DNA of 64,000 bases from Opitutales bacterium. GTDB lineage: Bacteria > Verrucomicrobiota > Verrucomicrobiia > Opitutales > Opitutaceae. A program made the position numbers and the translations under genes. Below the pieces are notes generated by a model. It was not told the DNA's origin and did not search any database. It saw only the letters and a list, made by a program, of their open reading frames with translations. Numbering within the stretch: position 1 is the stretch's first letter; every line of letters starts with the position of its first letter. The stretch spans positions 1 to 64,000 of the forward strand of contig JABITN010000045.1 of the NCBI GenBank assembly GCA_018700525.1, written 5' to 3'. Positions 5,040 through 16,610 of this stretch are shown here, in pieces.

Positions 5040-5900
5040 ATGGATGAACCATCAAGGCGAGAATCGATAATCAGCTCGAATAAAACCGCTTTCGTCAGAG
5101 GCTGCCACGAGATCTCGTTCGCCCAAAACGACAAACAGGTCAACGAGCTACCGCTTATCGTAGCTTACTCTTTGCCGAGCGGAGCGATAAAGACTTCACG
5201 CGGTTTCGCGACGGGCGACGGGCAAATGAAAGCTCGTTGCGATGTCTGCGCAGAAGGACAGTGGAAATGGGAAGCGAAGAACTTAGCTGGACGCTGCATC
5301 GATACCGGCGGATTCCACGCAATCGGGTCGCCGTTTCCCGCGCTACTACTTTCGCCGCTTGTTTTGGGGAGCTCTCCTTTCCGGAGGGATGCCCTCCTAT
5401 CGCGGATTGAATACCGACGCCGAATCCGACCGCAACTACAACGGAATCGAAGGTTACTATGGTTCGTGTAACGGTGGTCATCTAAGCTACGGAACCCACA
5501 ATTTGCTCAAGATAAAGCAATTCTTCGCGGATGCCGAAATCAGTTTGGAAAACTGGAAGCCCAACGATTCTCTTTCCGGATCGAACCCCCTTTTGGTCAA
5601 ATCAATGATTTTCAATGACGCGAGCCAATGCATCGCCTATATCGCCAACCCGGAATCCTACGCCGGCCACAGCCCCAATGGCTACGAAGGCATGCAGTCC
5701 GATCAGATTTCCGATACGAGCCAAACCTATACCATCTTCACGCTAGAACTCCCGTTTTCGAGCGGAAAGATCAGCTGGTTCAACCCAAGCACGGGTGAGT
5801 GGAACGGCAGTGCGGAAATCACAAAAAACTCTACAACTCTACTCACTCCAACGACTGGCGACTGGCGACTGGCGACTGGCGACTGGCGACTGGGTGGTTC
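5040..5900 (+). pseudogene. Glycoside-hydrolase-like (DUF5060/DUF4038-type) gene remnant: N- and C-terminal pieces in different frames, catalytic middle missing
   Basis: 5040-5350 resembles a DUF5060-like N-terminal domain; 5345 onward in another frame RYYFRRLFWGALLSGGMPSYRGLNTD...GYYGSCNGGHLSYGTHNLLKIKQFF...WFNPSTGEW resembles the end of a GH domain plus its C-terminal beta domain. Confidence 0.6.
5852..5893. repeat. Tandem heptanucleotide repeat (CGACTGG)x6
   Basis: Six exact consecutive copies read directly. Confidence 0.97.
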
Positions 5901-5975
5901 TGGCAAAACGCGGATAGTCAATTCGGCTCCACTCATTCGAATCGCCAAAGACGCCAGGCATGCTTTTCTCAAGCC

Positions 5976-6440
5976 ATGGAAAAAACGACGCTCATCTGCG
6001 CCATCATCGCTCAACTCGAATCCGACCTCGACCAAGCAAGCGGCGCAGCCCTCGAATCCGCCGAGTCCGCCACCCACGAAGAAGCGCGAGCAGAAAGCAA
6101 ATACGACACCCGAGGATTGGAAACCTCTTACCTCGCCAGCGGCCAGGCCCGCCACGCTCTCGAACTAAAAGAGAGTCTCGACGCCATTCGCAACTTCACA
6201 CTTCCAACATTCGACAGCTCCAATCCCATCGCTCTCGGGGCCATCGTCACCACACTCTCCTCCAACGGTCGGGAAACTTTTTTTCTCGTTCCTGGAATTG
6301 GTGGAATTAAACTTGAAACCGAACAAGGTCTCCTTACCGTAATCACTTCGAAATCCCCTATCGGCAGCGAACTGATCGGCAAACGAACCGGCGATCGCAT
6401 TCAAGCCGGCGGCGGCAAATCGATCATCCGCATAAGCTAA
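5976..6440 (+). CDS. GreA/GreB-family C-terminal-domain protein
   Basis: MEKTTLICAIIAQLESDLDQA...ESKYDTRGLETSYLASGQA...SPIGSELIGKRTGDRI (GreA/GreB FKBP-like domain). Confidence 0.75.
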   Translation: MEKTTLICAIIAQLESDLDQASGAALESAESATHEEARAESKYDTRGLETSYLASGQARHALELKESLDAIRNFTLPTFDSSNPIALGAIVTTLSSNGRETFFLVPGIGGIKLETEQGLLTVITSKSPIGSELIGKRTGDRIQAGGGKSIIRIS

Positions 6441-9440: not shown

Positions 9441-9535
9441 TTTCGCGTTGAAAAATCAGCCTTTCCCAGCTATTTTATAACGATGCAATCTAGACATTTC
9501 CACAGCGCTGCTTTAGGTTCCTCAAATTACTCCTC

Positions 9536-10165
9536 ATGAGCTTCACTAAAACCATCACCAAATCGCTTGTTTCCTCGCCCGAAAGGCGCATGGAAGCGGA
9601 CGAGGATCTTCTCATCGTACGCAAGATTCAAGCTGGCGATGTCGATGCATTTGATGCCCTTATCCTTAAATACCGTGAACGCGTCTACTCGGTCATCTAC
9701 AATCTTACCTCCAATCGAGAAGACGCCTCGGATTTGACCCAAGATGCCTTCATCAAGGCTTTCCAGTCCATCAATCGCTTCAAAGGGAAATCCAGCTTCT
9801 TCACTTGGCTATATCGGATCGCGCTCAACACTACGTTGACACACCTGCGCAAGAACAAGCTACGCCGCTTTCTCAGTTTCGAGAAAATGGCAGACGAAGA
9901 CCATACCGCAGGTTTCATCGAAAACATGACCTCGGAGTCAGACTCCGACAAGGCTGCTCTGATGAACGAGCTGCAAGAGAAGCTTAACGACGCTTTCCAA
10001 AAACTTTCCGTTAAACACAGAACCGTCATCACTCTTTTCGAAATCGACGGACTCAGCCACAAGGAAATCGCCGACATTACAGGTACTTCTATTGGAACCG
10101 TTCGCTCGCGGCTCCACTACGCCAAGCAATTTCTACAAGGCGAACTCAAGGACTACCTTCGCTAA
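9536..10165 (+). CDS. ECF-type RNA polymerase sigma factor
   Basis: sigma2 (DLTQDAFIKAFQSINRFKGKSSFFTWLYRIALN) and sigma4 (GLSHKEIADITGTSIGTVRSRLHYAKQFL). Confidence 0.93.
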   Translation: MSFTKTITKSLVSSPERRMEADEDLLIVRKIQAGDVDAFDALILKYRERVYSVIYNLTSNREDASDLTQDAFIKAFQSINRFKGKSSFFTWLYRIALNTTLTHLRKNKLRRFLSFEKMADEDHTAGFIENMTSESDSDKAALMNELQEKLNDAFQKLSVKHRTVITLFEIDGLSHKEIADITGTSIGTVRSRLHYAKQFLQGELKDYLR

Positions 10166-10187
10166 CCGCCAACCAATTCCCCCAACT

Positions 10188-10760
10188 ATGCCATCCCAAA
10201 AGCCAACGCCCGAAGCCGAAGAACGCTTAAGCCAGCTTTTACGCATTAAACGTCAGGAACGTCCCGACGCTGCATTTTGGAATAAATTCGACGAAGAACT
10301 ACGTAGCAAACAGCTCTCAGCGCTCGTCCGCACACAATCTTGGTACGAACGACTTGGGAAAATGTCTCTGGTCGTTGCTCGAAGATCAGCTACTGCAACT
10401 GCGGTCATCAGCGTATTCGCTCTGGGAATTTTCAGCGTGTCGCAAAGCGAGTTTTTCGCCAACAACAACACAGATAAAACCCAACCCGTGCTGGCGGGCG
10501 AATCGATCGCTCAAGATGCGACCAACCAATCGCCGCTGTTTATAGTCGAAGATAGCTTCATAGCCACTTTGGAGCCAACAGAACCCGTATTCATCCAAAC
10601 GATCGACGCTCAACCGCTCTACGAGATACACACGCTAACTCAAAGAGCGTCTTCTTCGAGCTATTCGATCAACGCGGCGACAAAACAATTTACGGTTGGT
10701 GGACTAACAAACAATACAAGCCTCGGAGCCAAAGTAATTCGCACCGGAAGCCAGTTCTAG
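10188..10760 (+). CDS. Single-TM protein, putative anti-sigma factor partner
   Basis: Charged N-terminal half, one TM (SATATAVISVFALGIFSVS), extracytoplasmic tail; immediately downstream of the ECF sigma gene. Confidence 0.6.
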   Translation: MPSQKPTPEAEERLSQLLRIKRQERPDAAFWNKFDEELRSKQLSALVRTQSWYERLGKMSLVVARRSATATAVISVFALGIFSVSQSEFFANNNTDKTQPVLAGESIAQDATNQSPLFIVEDSFIATLEPTEPVFIQTIDAQPLYEIHTLTQRASSSSYSINAATKQFTVGGLTNNTSLGAKVIRTGSQF

Positions 10761-10763
10761 CAA

Positions 10764-11816
10764 ATGCTCATTCCGTTGCTTAACCGTGCCCCAAAGGCTG
10801 GGCACTCGCTCGTTGCTATAGGATCAATTTTCGCATTATTACAATTCGCTCGTGCGGTCGATCCCGCCTTAAGCGGTCTTCAAACCACGATCCAAAAAGT
10901 CTACCAAGAACATTCGAACGCTGTCGTCAGGGTAAAAGTCGCCACTGAAAAGCAAACCGGTAGTGGAGAGCCTAAAGTTGTATTACGCGTTTTCTCCGGC
11001 TTCTTCATTAGCGATAAAGGTCAGGTATTGACCAGCTATATGCCTCCAAGCGAAACGACCCGCGTCTGGATCGAGCAAAACGGCATTTCATACCTCGCCG
11101 ATATATTAGGAGCGGACGCTCGAACGAACATCGCCTTGCTGCAAATCATCAATCTACCAAAATCCTTCGATTTCATAGAACTCGTAGAGAACAAAACTCC
11201 TCAATCAGTCGGATCATTCGCTTTTGCGATCACAAGTCCGCTCGACTTCGACCCAACGCCCAAATTCGGCCTAGTCACCGGATTCGAAAGCCATTTCGCC
11301 GAAGTCGAATTTCCCTTCACCTACACCCGGCTCAGTATTCCGATCGGACCCGCCGAAGGAGGATCTCCCGCCTTCGATGCAGACAACGAGTTGATTGGTA
11401 TCGTCATGGCAACATTACCCGAAGTGAACTCCTCGTACATCATTCCAACCAAAGCACTTTCTCGGATAACCAACCAACTCAAAGAATATCAGAAAGTAAG
11501 ATACGGAGTCATACCAATCGCTTTCGAAGAAAAAGCCGATAGCTACAATCAAAGTAAACGCGTCCTAATAAAAAGCATCGTCCCTGGCAGTCCCGCAGAC
11601 CGTAGTGGGCTTCGTCCCAAAGATATCCTCCTCAGTCTAGATGACACCCCTGCCGACAGTCTCAACGAGGTACGGAATCAAATTTTCATCAAGAACCCTG
11701 GAGACTTCATATTATTCAAGGTGAAACGCGACGACAAAGAACTCGAATTTGCGATTCTCCTGGAGCCTCAAGAAGACCATATCCAATCAACGGATACTCA
11801 AGGTGTTTCGAAGTAG
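10764..11816 (+). CDS. HtrA/DegS-like trypsin-fold + PDZ protein with degenerate catalytic motifs
   Basis: GFFISDKGQVLTSYMPP...DARTNIALLQI...GPAEGGSPAFDADNELIGIV...PDZ (VPGSPADRSGLRPKDILLSLDD). Confidence 0.85.
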   Translation: MLIPLLNRAPKAGHSLVAIGSIFALLQFARAVDPALSGLQTTIQKVYQEHSNAVVRVKVATEKQTGSGEPKVVLRVFSGFFISDKGQVLTSYMPPSETTRVWIEQNGISYLADILGADARTNIALLQIINLPKSFDFIELVENKTPQSVGSFAFAITSPLDFDPTPKFGLVTGFESHFAEVEFPFTYTRLSIPIGPAEGGSPAFDADNELIGIVMATLPEVNSSYIIPTKALSRITNQLKEYQKVRYGVIPIAFEEKADSYNQSKRVLIKSIVPGSPADRSGLRPKDILLSLDDTPADSLNEVRNQIFIKNPGDFILFKVKRDDKELEFAILLEPQEDHIQSTDTQGVSK

Positions 11817-12349: not shown

Positions 12350-13885
12350 CTATTGATTACGGAAAGCATCCATATCGATTCCGACTTCCGTCATACGCTC
12401 TTGGGAGAAGACATCTTCGAAATCCGCATCTTCGCTAGGCAAGATTTTAGCCGTGATGAAGATCAGCAAATTCATCTTACTACCTTCCTTATCCTTATGT
12501 CGGAATGCAGCACCGATTCCTGGAATCTTGGAAAGAAAAGGCACCTTGCTTAGCTCTTCTACCCCGCTAGCTTGCATCAACCCGCCAATCCCCATAGTGT
12601 ACCCATCTTGCAATGCGATCTGAGTCTCTGTACGCCGCGTCGAAATGATCGGGATACTTGCTCCACTAGCTCCACCGAATTCACGTTCGCCCGTACGACT
12701 ACTAACTTCAGGAATAACGCGCAAAGTGATAAGGCCCTGATTGTTGACCGAAGGTTTAACTTTAAGGTTTACACCAATGTCCTTATATTCAAACCCGCTA
12801 ATCTCAAACGTTCCTCGCTCGTCGTTATACTGGTAATTCGGAATCGGGAACTGCTCCCCGATCGAAATTGTAGCTTCCTGGTTGTTCAAAGTCACAACCG
12901 TTGGGTGAGATACCAAACGACTGTTACCCTGTTGCTTCAACGCTCTGAAGATGAATCCAATTTGGCTCGAATTGAAAACAGCATTGGTCATCTTGGTCAA
13001 ATCTCCATTGCGAACCAACGAACTCAAATCTCTGACCGCACTCTGCTGAAGCAAGAGATCTTTTTCGGTTGTAGTCATTCCTTGGCGACCCTCAATATCC
13101 GTAAACTGATGGCTTAGTTGATCAGTGCTAATTTCCAAATTATCCAAACTATTCCAGCGAACACCAATCTTGGATACATCCTGGTTCGTAACTTCGACGA
13201 ACCGCGTTTCAATCATAACCTGCAAGGTAGGTTTATCCAGACGTTCCACCACCTCGCGAATTGCGCCCATCCGAGACTGGCGTTCCGTTACGATCAATCC
13301 ATTCGTCCGAGCATCGATCTGTACGCGGCCACCTTTTTCAGCGTCAACCATACTTGTGACCGTACCCGCAATCTGACCAGCCTCCGCATAGTTCAGCATA
13401 AAGATATCCGTAACCGGAGGTTCGAAATTAAGAGTATCATTTGAAATGACATTTATGATATTTCCTTCTTCTACGTAAGTAAATCCGATTGGATCCAACA
13501 CTACATTAAAAATCTGCCTCCAGGAAACCTCACGTAATTTAATCGAAATCGTTCCTTGCAAACTTTCAGGTATTACGATGTTCAACATATATAAATCAGC
13601 GACATTTCGCAGAACCGTTCGAATTTCTTCGTTCGGAAAGTCCACGGAAATCATATCCGATTCTCCCAAAGAGAGCTCATTGCCCAACGGAGAACTGCCA
13701 GACGGATCGCTTCTAGATTCGTCGCTTCCGTTCGACGACTCGCTAATCAAAACGGAATCATCGAACTGCTTGCCAACATTGCCCCGGCTCGAAGGGTCAA
13801 AGCTTACGTTATTCTGGCCGAATGCCGCAAGACTCAAGCATCCAATCAAGACAGTAGTTATCTTTATTCTTATTGTTCTGCTCAT
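12350..13885 (-). CDS. pilQ: Type IV pilus/type II secretion secretin (PilQ/GspD-like)
   Basis: Secretin domain: VSHPTVVTLNNQEATISIGEQFPIPNYQ...GVNLKVKPSVNNQGLITLRVIPEVS; end of pilM-N-O operon. Confidence 0.88.
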   Translation of the reverse strand: MSRTIRIKITTVLIGCLSLAAFGQNNVSFDPSSRGNVGKQFDDSVLISESSNGSDESRSDPSGSSPLGNELSLGESDMISVDFPNEEIRTVLRNVADLYMLNIVIPESLQGTISIKLREVSWRQIFNVVLDPIGFTYVEEGNIINVISNDTLNFEPPVTDIFMLNYAEAGQIAGTVTSMVDAEKGGRVQIDARTNGLIVTERQSRMGAIREVVERLDKPTLQVMIETRFVEVTNQDVSKIGVRWNSLDNLEISTDQLSHQFTDIEGRQGMTTTEKDLLLQQSAVRDLSSLVRNGDLTKMTNAVFNSSQIGFIFRALKQQGNSRLVSHPTVVTLNNQEATISIGEQFPIPNYQYNDERGTFEISGFEYKDIGVNLKVKPSVNNQGLITLRVIPEVSSRTGEREFGGASGASIPIISTRRTETQIALQDGYTMGIGGLMQASGVEELSKVPFLSKIPGIGAAFRHKDKEGSKMNLLIFITAKILPSEDADFEDVFSQERMTEVGIDMDAFRNQ

Positions 13886-13889
13886 ATGT

Positions 13890-14360
13890 CTACTTTAGTT
13901 TGATTGCCACTTCAGCATCCCCGAGCCGTAGGCTATACCCGTTACGCAGGACGTTCACTATTTCCAAATTGTATTCTATATTCTGATACCTTACGGGAAC
14001 AGATTCACCCGACTTCACCCTAATTTCCTTAAATATCAGGTAATACGCTCCTCCTACAGCAAAAATCCCAGTCGGTTTAATATTCTTGGCGAGAATCGGC
14101 ATCAACTCCTGAGCGGAAAGGCTTTCGTCAACTTCAACAATCGCTTCCTCCACAACCTTCCGAGTTACCGAGAACGGATCTCCCACCAAAACAATCGCCT
14201 CTTCCGTCAACGGAATAATAATCCGATCCAAAAGCTTTTTCGACAATTCGATTTTCTCTTTACGTTCATCCGGAGACTTAACCGCCGAATAGCCAATCGA
14301 TGCCGGCATCAAGATAATCGCGAAAGCAAGGAAGCCTTTAAAGTTTTTCGAAAACCTCAT
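13890..14360 (-). CDS. Small exported protein in PilP position
   Basis: Signal peptide; lies between pilO-like and pilQ genes with tight spacing. Confidence 0.5.
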   Translation of the reverse strand: MRFSKNFKGFLAFAIILMPASIGYSAVKSPDERKEKIELSKKLLDRIIIPLTEEAIVLVGDPFSVTRKVVEEAIVEVDESLSAQELMPILAKNIKPTGIFAVGGAYYLIFKEIRVKSGESVPVRYQNIEYNLEIVNVLRNGYSLRLGDAEVAIKLK

Positions 14361-14953
14361 GATGATGCATTCCTTCCCAAAATCAGTAGAGACATGTCCA
14401 TCGAGAGTTTAGAGGAATCAGTGCCCGTACCTTTAGATACACGAAACTTCTCTAACCGATAGAACGAGGGCCCACCTTCAAGCTTCCGCATCAGATCTAC
14501 CAATTGCATATACTCGCCGATCGCCGTCATATGATATCGTATTTTCTGATACGCATCTTTTGTTGGCTTAGGCATTCGCTTCTTTTTGTTTGACCGAACT
14601 TCGTCTTCGCTCACATCAAATTGCTTCAAACCGCTAATTCTCACTCCCGTATCCGCTTCGATATTGAAGAAGTAATTATAATTTTTGGCCAACTCTTGGG
14701 AATCGAAAAGCCGGGCATCGAGTTGCTCTATGCTATCCTCGACAACTGCTAGATCTTCCTCCAACCTCCAGCTATTCTTCATATTCTTCAAGATCGTCGA
14801 CATTCGAATATCAAGCTGCTCGATCTCGGAATCCAAATTCGCTTTTTTGTCTAAATGAAACAAGAAGACCAAGGTGCACACCAAGAATACAACGCTCGAA
14901 ATCGAGAGTATCACCTTCTTCCTTACAAAATCTAAAATCGCTTCAATTTTCAT
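14357..14953 (-). CDS. PilO-like type IV pilus inner-membrane protein
   Basis: N-terminal TM, coiled coil, context. Confidence 0.6.
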   Translation of the reverse strand: MKIEAILDFVRKKVILSISSVVFLVCTLVFLFHLDKKANLDSEIEQLDIRMSTILKNMKNSWRLEEDLAVVEDSIEQLDARLFDSQELAKNYNYFFNIEADTGVRISGLKQFDVSEDEVRSNKKKRMPKPTKDAYQKIRYHMTAIGEYMQLVDLMRKLEGGPSFYRLEKFRVSKGTGTDSSKLSMDMSLLILGRNASS

Positions 14954-14955
14954 CG

Positions 14956-15576
14956 CTAGGACCTCTTTTTGGTTTTGTCCGTTTCATCCGATCGGGTTGC
15001 CTCTAAGTGGAATTTTATCTGATCGGTTCCTGGCTGACGCTCAACCGAAACCTGGGTAAACTCATCGTACCACTCGCTCAGTAATTCGATACCTTTAAGT
15101 CTCTCCATATATTCCTTAAGCAACGAATCCGTCTCTTCGTTCGCCACAACAAAACCATGCAATACGGTTTTCCCTTCGGTATACTCCACACTCGAAAGCG
15201 ACATATCCGGCATTAAGCTTTTACCGACATAAATCAGCATATCACTTGCGATCATTTGATCGCTTTCGAACGTATTGAGTTCATCAATTCGACGAACTTT
15301 TTCGGTGAAATTGTTATTCATCCCGATCGCCTTCGCATGCACACCTTGCCTCGCGGCAATCTCCACATTCACCGCCTCGATCTTCTGCTCAACCGATACG
15401 ATACTGTATTCATGAAAGCCTAATCGCATTAGGCTCATAACCGCTAGGCTCAAAGCAAGTGACGAAACGAAAAAACTTGTCCTAACCGTCTTGACGTCAG
15501 GCAAAGCATTCGTATCCCTAAAATCAGGACGCCAGCTATACTCCCTGACCTCTACTCTTTCCCCAAAAAATTTCAT
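14956..15576 (-). CDS. PilN-like protein
   Basis: Single TM then coiled coil; start trimmed to MKFFGERVE; start overlaps end of pilM-like gene. Confidence 0.6.
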   Translation of the reverse strand: MKFFGERVEVREYSWRPDFRDTNALPDVKTVRTSFFVSSLALSLAVMSLMRLGFHEYSIVSVEQKIEAVNVEIAARQGVHAKAIGMNNNFTEKVRRIDELNTFESDQMIASDMLIYVGKSLMPDMSLSSVEYTEGKTVLHGFVVANEETDSLLKEYMERLKGIELLSEWYDEFTQVSVERQPGTDQIKFHLEATRSDETDKTKKRS

Positions 15577-16610
15577 TAAGCGGCAACTTCCTCTTTTTTG
15601 AAGTTGCACAAGGAAGCCAATTGCCCTAGCCAAGAAATATCTAAACGCTCGATCAACGAATCGTCAGCACCTTTAATATCGTTGGCTTTCAACCATTCGC
15701 TTAGATCCAAGCTAAATGGATTCAGGTTCAACAAACTTCCTACGCTACCCTCGAGCCAATCCATAGAGGTCACCCGATTCGAACAATGTATCCAGCTAAC
15801 CGACTGCCCTGTTTGAACTTCGTAAAACCCAATCGACGATTGGAGTTCGCGCATCAGTCTTCGCAGTATCTTACGCGATATTGAGCTAAAATCGAAATCT
15901 CGGGAAGAAAGCAATTTGTAAGCTGCGTTTTCATCTTTCAAATTCAGCTCTCCCTTGAGGGCGAACGCGATATCCTCCGAACCGGTTTCGATTCGACGAG
16001 ACATCTCAATGCCTTTCGGTCCTACGATTACTGTATTTGAAAACGTTTTTTCGATTTCTAAAAAAAGGGAGGGAGCCTCAGAACCCTCCTGAATCAAAGC
16101 ATCCTGCAATGAACCAATCGTACCGATCGTTCCCAATTCGATCCTATTAGGATAGATTCCGTGCTCGAGCATTTGATTTTGCAAATTCACAATATCAACG
16201 TTCGGAACGCCACAGACAATGACCTCCTTATTATTATAATTGGAGGGATCGATTTCCTCGCCAGTCGCCGGCGATAGGCAATGAACCGAGAGCTCAACTG
16301 GAACGTCGCTAAAGCTCTCGCCGAGAGTCTTAAAAACGAAATCCGCTTCAGTTCCTTTCGGAGCATCGATCGTAATCTGCCGAATGACTCGACGTTCCGG
16401 ATAAACGACGCAGGCTCCACTAAGATAGCCATTTACTTTTACGCCAGCGAGTTTTCGAACTGCCGCCGCGATTACCCTGACATCGTTTCCGAGAGGAATT
16501 TCCTCGATGGATTCAATGGCGATGGGAGACGTGTAAGAACTTACACGAACGACTCTAATGCAGGTCGGTCGATACTCTATGATATAATCTTTCTTGCTTG
16601 AGGAAATCAT
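15576..16610 (-). CDS. PilM-like actin-fold ATPase
   Basis: First gene of the M-N-O-Q order; SSKKDYIIEYRPTCIRVVRVSS..., SLFLEIEKTFSNTVIVG, ELQSSIGFYEVQTG. Confidence 0.65.
   Translation of the reverse strand: MISSSKKDYIIEYRPTCIRVVRVSSYTSPIAIESIEEIPLGNDVRVIAAAVRKLAGVKVNGYLSGACVVYPERRVIRQITIDAPKGTEADFVFKTLGESFSDVPVELSVHCLSPATGEEIDPSNYNNKEVIVCGVPNVDIVNLQNQMLEHGIYPNRIELGTIGTIGSLQDALIQEGSEAPSLFLEIEKTFSNTVIVGPKGIEMSRRIETGSEDIAFALKGELNLKDENAAYKLLSSRDFDFSSISRKILRRLMRELQSSIGFYEVQTGQSVSWIHCSNRVTSMDWLEGSVGSLLNLNPFSLDLSEWLKANDIKGADDSLIERLDISWLGQLASLCNFKKEEVAA

Follow-up and report, generated by a model that had tools for sequence, protein, structure and literature searches.

An HtrA-fold pseudoprotease encoded with an ECF sigma factor and an aromatic-tailed membrane protein across much of Verrucomicrobiia

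In the textbook sigmaE-RseA-DegS system, recognition of misfolded outer-membrane protein (OMP) C-termini by a PDZ domain turns on the protease. What, then, can an HtrA-fold protein without a catalytic triad contribute when it is encoded beside an ECF sigma factor and a membrane protein? The question is raised by a locus in a 64,000-nucleotide stretch of DNA from an Opitutales bacterium, here called the window. Three genes follow each other head to tail on the plus strand, encoding a sigma factor, a single-pass transmembrane (TM) protein and an HtrA-like protein. The open reading frames give this trio, as in the original prediction, and Pfam identifies the sigma factor and the HtrA-like protein, NCBIfam the former.

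The HtrA-like gene (10764..11816, plus strand) encodes 350 residues comprising a signal-peptide or anchor segment, a trypsin-like domain and one PDZ domain. Pfam detects Trypsin_2 (3.7e-11) and PDZ_2 (6.5e-13). The AlphaFold model has a mean pLDDT of 85.9 and shows the layout of the HtrA family, i.e. a trypsin-like beta-barrel domain and then a PDZ domain, preceded by a hydrophobic helix (residues 11-29) that could be a signal peptide or an anchor. Foldseek matches the model to DegP, DegQ, DegS and AlgW, and the three best matches have TM-scores of 0.79-0.82 by target length. The protein had been described as HtrA/DegS-like; the HtrA fold holds, and the protein is nearer to DegP and DegQ than to DegS both in sequence and in the Foldseek ranking.

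The catalytic triad is missing from this fold. In the alignment to solved DegP/DegQ structures TNNHV is replaced by TSYMP, RSDIA by RTNIA and GNSGGP by AEGGSP, so that the catalytic His position is occupied by Met93 (11040..11042), the Asp position by Asn122 (11127..11129) and the Ser position by Gly199 (11358..11360), which bears out the degenerate motifs first read from the window. The 87 aligned orthologues comprise 40 sequences of the order, 46 of the class beyond it and a single one of the phylum outside the class. None has the His, none has the Asp, which is mostly Asn or Gly, and eight have the Ser. A triad displaced to another part of the protein was rejected because no His column is conserved, the best reaching 42 of 87 and none lying at the active site. 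The His of TSHLPP, found in some members of the genus, was also rejected as catalytic; it sits one position before the catalytic column. Between near relatives dN/dS is 0.07-0.24, i.e. the gene is under purifying selection, and this value, the class-wide retention and the open frames led us to reject a recent pseudogene. That the protein is a pseudoprotease is well supported.

The pseudo-HtrA has orthologues in all ten further genomes of its genus; some genera of the family carry it, as do most of the order's families that were searched. The sigma and TM genes adjoin it in 27 of the 28 loci from the order, and many of these also share polyprenyl-synthetase and UPF0047 neighbours. Of 286 genomes sampled from the class, about 125 contain a match of 1e-50 or better; the loci sampled there show the same trio, with the sigma and TM genes alongside in nearly all cases where no contig end interrupts the locus. 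Beyond the class, one genome of the phylum (L169) has the same trio. Relatives in the order and the class share both the degenerate residues and the synteny, a comparison that the original prediction had proposed. In a phylogenetic tree every intact HtrA falls on one side of a branch with 100/100 support, so that the pseudoproteases may have a single origin; with the root placed among the intact proteases, the pseudoproteases form one clade. At one locus (L051:5320-6345) the pseudo-HtrA directly follows the polyprenyl synthetase and the sigma and TM genes are missing, with no TM-protein match in that genome, and at another (L183) no sigma gene is within reach.

The sigma gene (9536..10165, plus strand) encodes a 209-residue RpoE/SigW-like ECF factor. 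It matches Sigma70_r2 (4.7e-19) and Sigma70_r4_2 (3.2e-14) in Pfam, its nearest NCBIfam model is RpoE, and it contains regions sigma2 and sigma4 without sigma1 or sigma3, as RpoE-type ECF factors do. Orthologues 51-96% identical are found in the equivalent position in relatives. Upstream, at 9485..9525 (plus strand), a region conserved within the genus and read by eye contains GCAATCTAGACATT (GGAAYCTAGACA in some sister genomes), followed after about 17 bases by a CGTA/TAG-like element. As an ECF-type autoregulatory promoter this is only suggestive, and a genome scan with the motif found 16 sites, compared with 7 in the reversed control, which is no clear enrichment.

The TM protein (10188..10760, plus strand) has 190 residues when read from its ATG; the mechanical call of the reading frame begins at a TTG upstream. 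According to AlphaFold it forms helices at residues 8-23, 28-46 and 52-86, and the remainder is unstructured; the mean pLDDT is only 65, with about 90 in the N-terminal helices. The order along the chain is conserved N-terminal helices (LLRIKRQERPDAAFW), the TM helix (residues 52-86, 10341..10445), a variable disordered periplasmic part and a C-terminal Phe. Five Lys/Arg residues lie on the N-terminal side of the TM helix and one on the C-terminal side, which argues for an N-in, C-out topology. An N-terminal LLxLKRxExPxxxFW segment is kept in the TM proteins of the order, and those of the class carry a related LLRLKKxExPxxYFxxF. The window, class and long versions have no significant Pfam match, and the window protein none in NCBIfam; the N-terminal domain of RseA was not recognised, nor was any known anti-sigma domain, and a profile search of solved structures returned chance-level hits only. 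As in RseA, there is a single TM helix, a predicted cytosolic N-terminus and an adjoining sigma gene. An anti-sigma factor is the likeliest reading, resting on position and topology, and from it we infer that the protein inhibits the sigma factor. Contig C4 of the source genome (L162:2904-3701) encodes a further member of this TM family, longer than the first and ending LSLRF, with similar proteins in L163 and L164. We looked for a sigma gene beside it and found none; it is possibly an anti-sigma factor acting in trans.

The most constant feature of the TM protein is its last residue, Phe190 in the window (10755..10757, plus strand; tail TGSQF-COOH). The chain ends in Phe or Tyr in 98 of 102 TM proteins, i.e. 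47/47 from outside the order, 37/41 from the order and 14/14 from genera lacking the pseudo-HtrA, paralogues included. In a fresh set fetched after the first observation, where the reading frames were chosen by position and hydrophobicity alone and the C-terminus was ignored, all 35 end in Phe or Tyr. The naive binomial probability for this set, 4e-39 with a background of 8%, is too small given the relatedness of the sequences. The other two proteins encoded at each locus served as controls: a terminal Phe or Tyr occurs in 2 of 100 sigma factors and 0 of 87 HtrA-like proteins, on which grounds a chance Phe was rejected. The residues around the terminal Phe/Tyr are scrambled between families and the periplasmic arm varies freely.

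Phe-ended C-terminal peptides are PDZ ligands in the E. coli DegS and P. aeruginosa AlgW systems, where the ligand form is a hydrophobic residue at position -2 and a terminal Phe (YQF for DegS, WVF for AlgW; PMC8545111). Of 46 tails from the class, 43 have a hydrophobic residue at position -2. The carboxylate-binding loop of the PDZ domain is mostly W-hydrophobic-G-hydrophobic outside the window's family, with the Gly invariant (69/69) and the Trp before it present in most. This is close to W281-L282-x-V284 of AlgW, where alanine substitutions hurt activation (PMC8545111). In the class, tail and loop thus resemble a Phe ligand and the pocket that fits it, as known from AlgW.

The window's own family departs from this pattern. 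Its loop reads V249-I-P-I252 in the window (11508..11519, plus strand), the Gly is replaced by Pro in 17 of 18 members (P251 here), and the -2 residue of the tail is non-hydrophobic in 16 of 18. The PDZ had been called well kept, which is only partly right given this change in the carboxylate loop. Loop type and -2 residue are associated (Fisher P 2e-7), though the signal comes from a single lineage and is no more than suggestive. Because of the loop Pro and the mostly non-hydrophobic -2 residue, tail binding in this family may be weak or different, and the loop Pro is a warning that the window's lineage may be drifting away from it.

In many genera of this family the pseudo-HtrA is absent, but the sigma factor is kept along with a longer TM protein that ends in [ILF][KR]F (14/14, paralogues included). 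These are the genera of L150-L158, L165 and L166, and in L152 and L154 a fumarase/aspartase-like gene stands where the pseudo-HtrA would be. Since the Phe tail persists without the pseudo-HtrA, it has at least one other reader and the linked PDZ is not the sole one; most simply, the other reader is the PDZ of an intact HtrA. The near-invariant Phe/Tyr lends strong, if indirect, support to the suggestion that the PDZ binds the partner's C-terminus; the altered loop in the window's family and the tails kept without a pseudo-HtrA qualify it. Among the TonB-receptor hits of the source genome 7 of 13 end in Phe, in partial support of OMP mimicry; BamA, whose C-terminus is TFGGRL, has no terminal Phe and was set aside as such support.

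Three other HtrAs of the source genome keep His, Asp and Ser, one of them DegS-like with an N-terminal anchor, and RseP is encoded elsewhere than the trio. Non-proteolytic release of the sigma factor, proposed in the original prediction, does not follow from the loss of the triad; because these proteases are encoded in the genome, release may still be proteolytic.

We tentatively favour an envelope-stress switch of sigma factor, anti-sigma factor and pseudo-HtrA, in which the last would use its PDZ to cap the anti-sigma tail, with no catalysis of its own. The anti-sigma factor would hold the sigma factor in the cytosol with its short N-terminal helical domain, cross the membrane once and extend a flexible periplasmic arm whose aromatic end resembles the C-terminus of an OMP. 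In calm conditions the pseudo-HtrA, a periplasmic PDZ scaffold that does not cut, would hold this tail and so control the access of the intact HtrAs, and then of RseP, to the anti-sigma factor. Misfolded OMPs with similar C-termini would compete for the PDZ and uncover the tail, and the freed anti-sigma factor would be cut by an intact HtrA, e.g. the DegS-like one, and then by RseP. In this scheme both the binding of tail to PDZ and its protective direction are inferred. It is conceivable, though more doubtful, that the system is class-wide, with a dead HtrA reading the OMP-like tail of the anti-sigma factor and misfolded OMPs sensed by PDZ competition rather than by protease activation. The analysis suggests that a dead protease is what many Verrucomicrobiota use to detect stress at the envelope.

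The binding could also have the opposite effect. As a positive adaptor, the pseudo-HtrA would bind the tail or an active HtrA, through mixed trimers or allosteric contact, and promote cutting of the anti-sigma factor, much as MamO activates MamE-dependent proteolysis (PMC4794232). The kept HtrA fold and the intact HtrAs of the source genome would suit such a role, but none of the trios was seen with a linked active protease, and we consider it rather unlikely. The tail might instead be mainly a degron or OMP mimic for the PDZ of an active HtrA or for BAM, with the pseudo-HtrA sensing or chaperoning something else in the pathway and not binding the tail. In genera without the pseudo-HtrA the tail persists and looks more like an OMP end ([IL]KF), which points this way, as does the Gly-to-Pro change that the PDZ loop shows in the window's family; against it, tail and pocket look matched in the wider class and the pseudo-HtrA and TM genes adjoin, and this too seems unlikely. 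CnrX-CnrY-CnrH is a non-proteolytic sigma switch, and a similar arrangement, where the pseudo-HtrA would pull on the anti-sigma factor in the periplasm and free the sigma factor uncleaved, would fit the three-gene layout, the short two-helix N-terminal domain and the absent catalytic residues; it is improbable given RseP and the intact HtrAs in the genome, and no metal-site pattern was seen. That the protein still cuts by means of a rearranged catalytic site, for which the Ser of the eight orthologues might speak, or that the gene is simply decaying, is hardly credible, as no His column exceeds 42 of 87 or lies at the active site, and decay is already disfavoured by a dN/dS clearly below 1 and by retention across the class.

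The favoured PDZ-cap switch is built of known kinds of parts. E. coli sigmaE-RseA-DegS and P. aeruginosa AlgU-MucA-AlgW share with it an RpoE-type ECF sigma factor, a single-TM partner with a periplasmic arm and a one-PDZ HtrA fold, whereas here the HtrA member is dead and its gene sits in the sigma operon, and the aromatic tail belongs to the membrane partner itself, which has no RseA-domain match. P. aeruginosa MucE (C-terminal WVF) is likewise a non-OMP protein whose Phe C-terminus is read by an HtrA PDZ, that of AlgW, whose pocket (W281, L282, V284) resembles the class loop W-V-G-V; MucE, however, is not an anti-sigma factor; it is a protein apart that activates a working protease. MamO of magnetotactic bacteria also combines an HtrA/trypsin-2 fold and a degenerate triad with non-catalytic roles (PMC4794232). 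It differs in its magnetosome function, its metal binding and its lack of sigma linkage. The role proposed here, a non-catalytic periplasmic shield of the anti-sigma factor against proteolysis, is that of RseB/MucB, the fold of which is unrelated to HtrA. In literature outside subscription journals, and other than the main ECF reclassification paper, we did not find a dead HtrA in a sigma operon together with a tail on the anti-sigma factor; on that coverage the combination cannot be called unreported.

Across much of Verrucomicrobiia a related layout has kept the recognition fold and dropped the chemistry, with a membrane partner that has its own OMP-like tail. If the model is true, sensing and cutting can be divided over two HtrAs, one dead and one live, and what the PDZ adds on its own could be tested cleanly. 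A single terminal residue also offers a concrete, mutable handle on stress signalling in a little-studied phylum.

Elsewhere in the window, a short tandem repeat at about 5799-6000, close to where an open frame ends, encodes DWRLATG units, and, judged from sequence alone, the minus strand at 12350-16610 carries a run resembling pilus-assembly genes (secretin, PilM/N/O/P-like).
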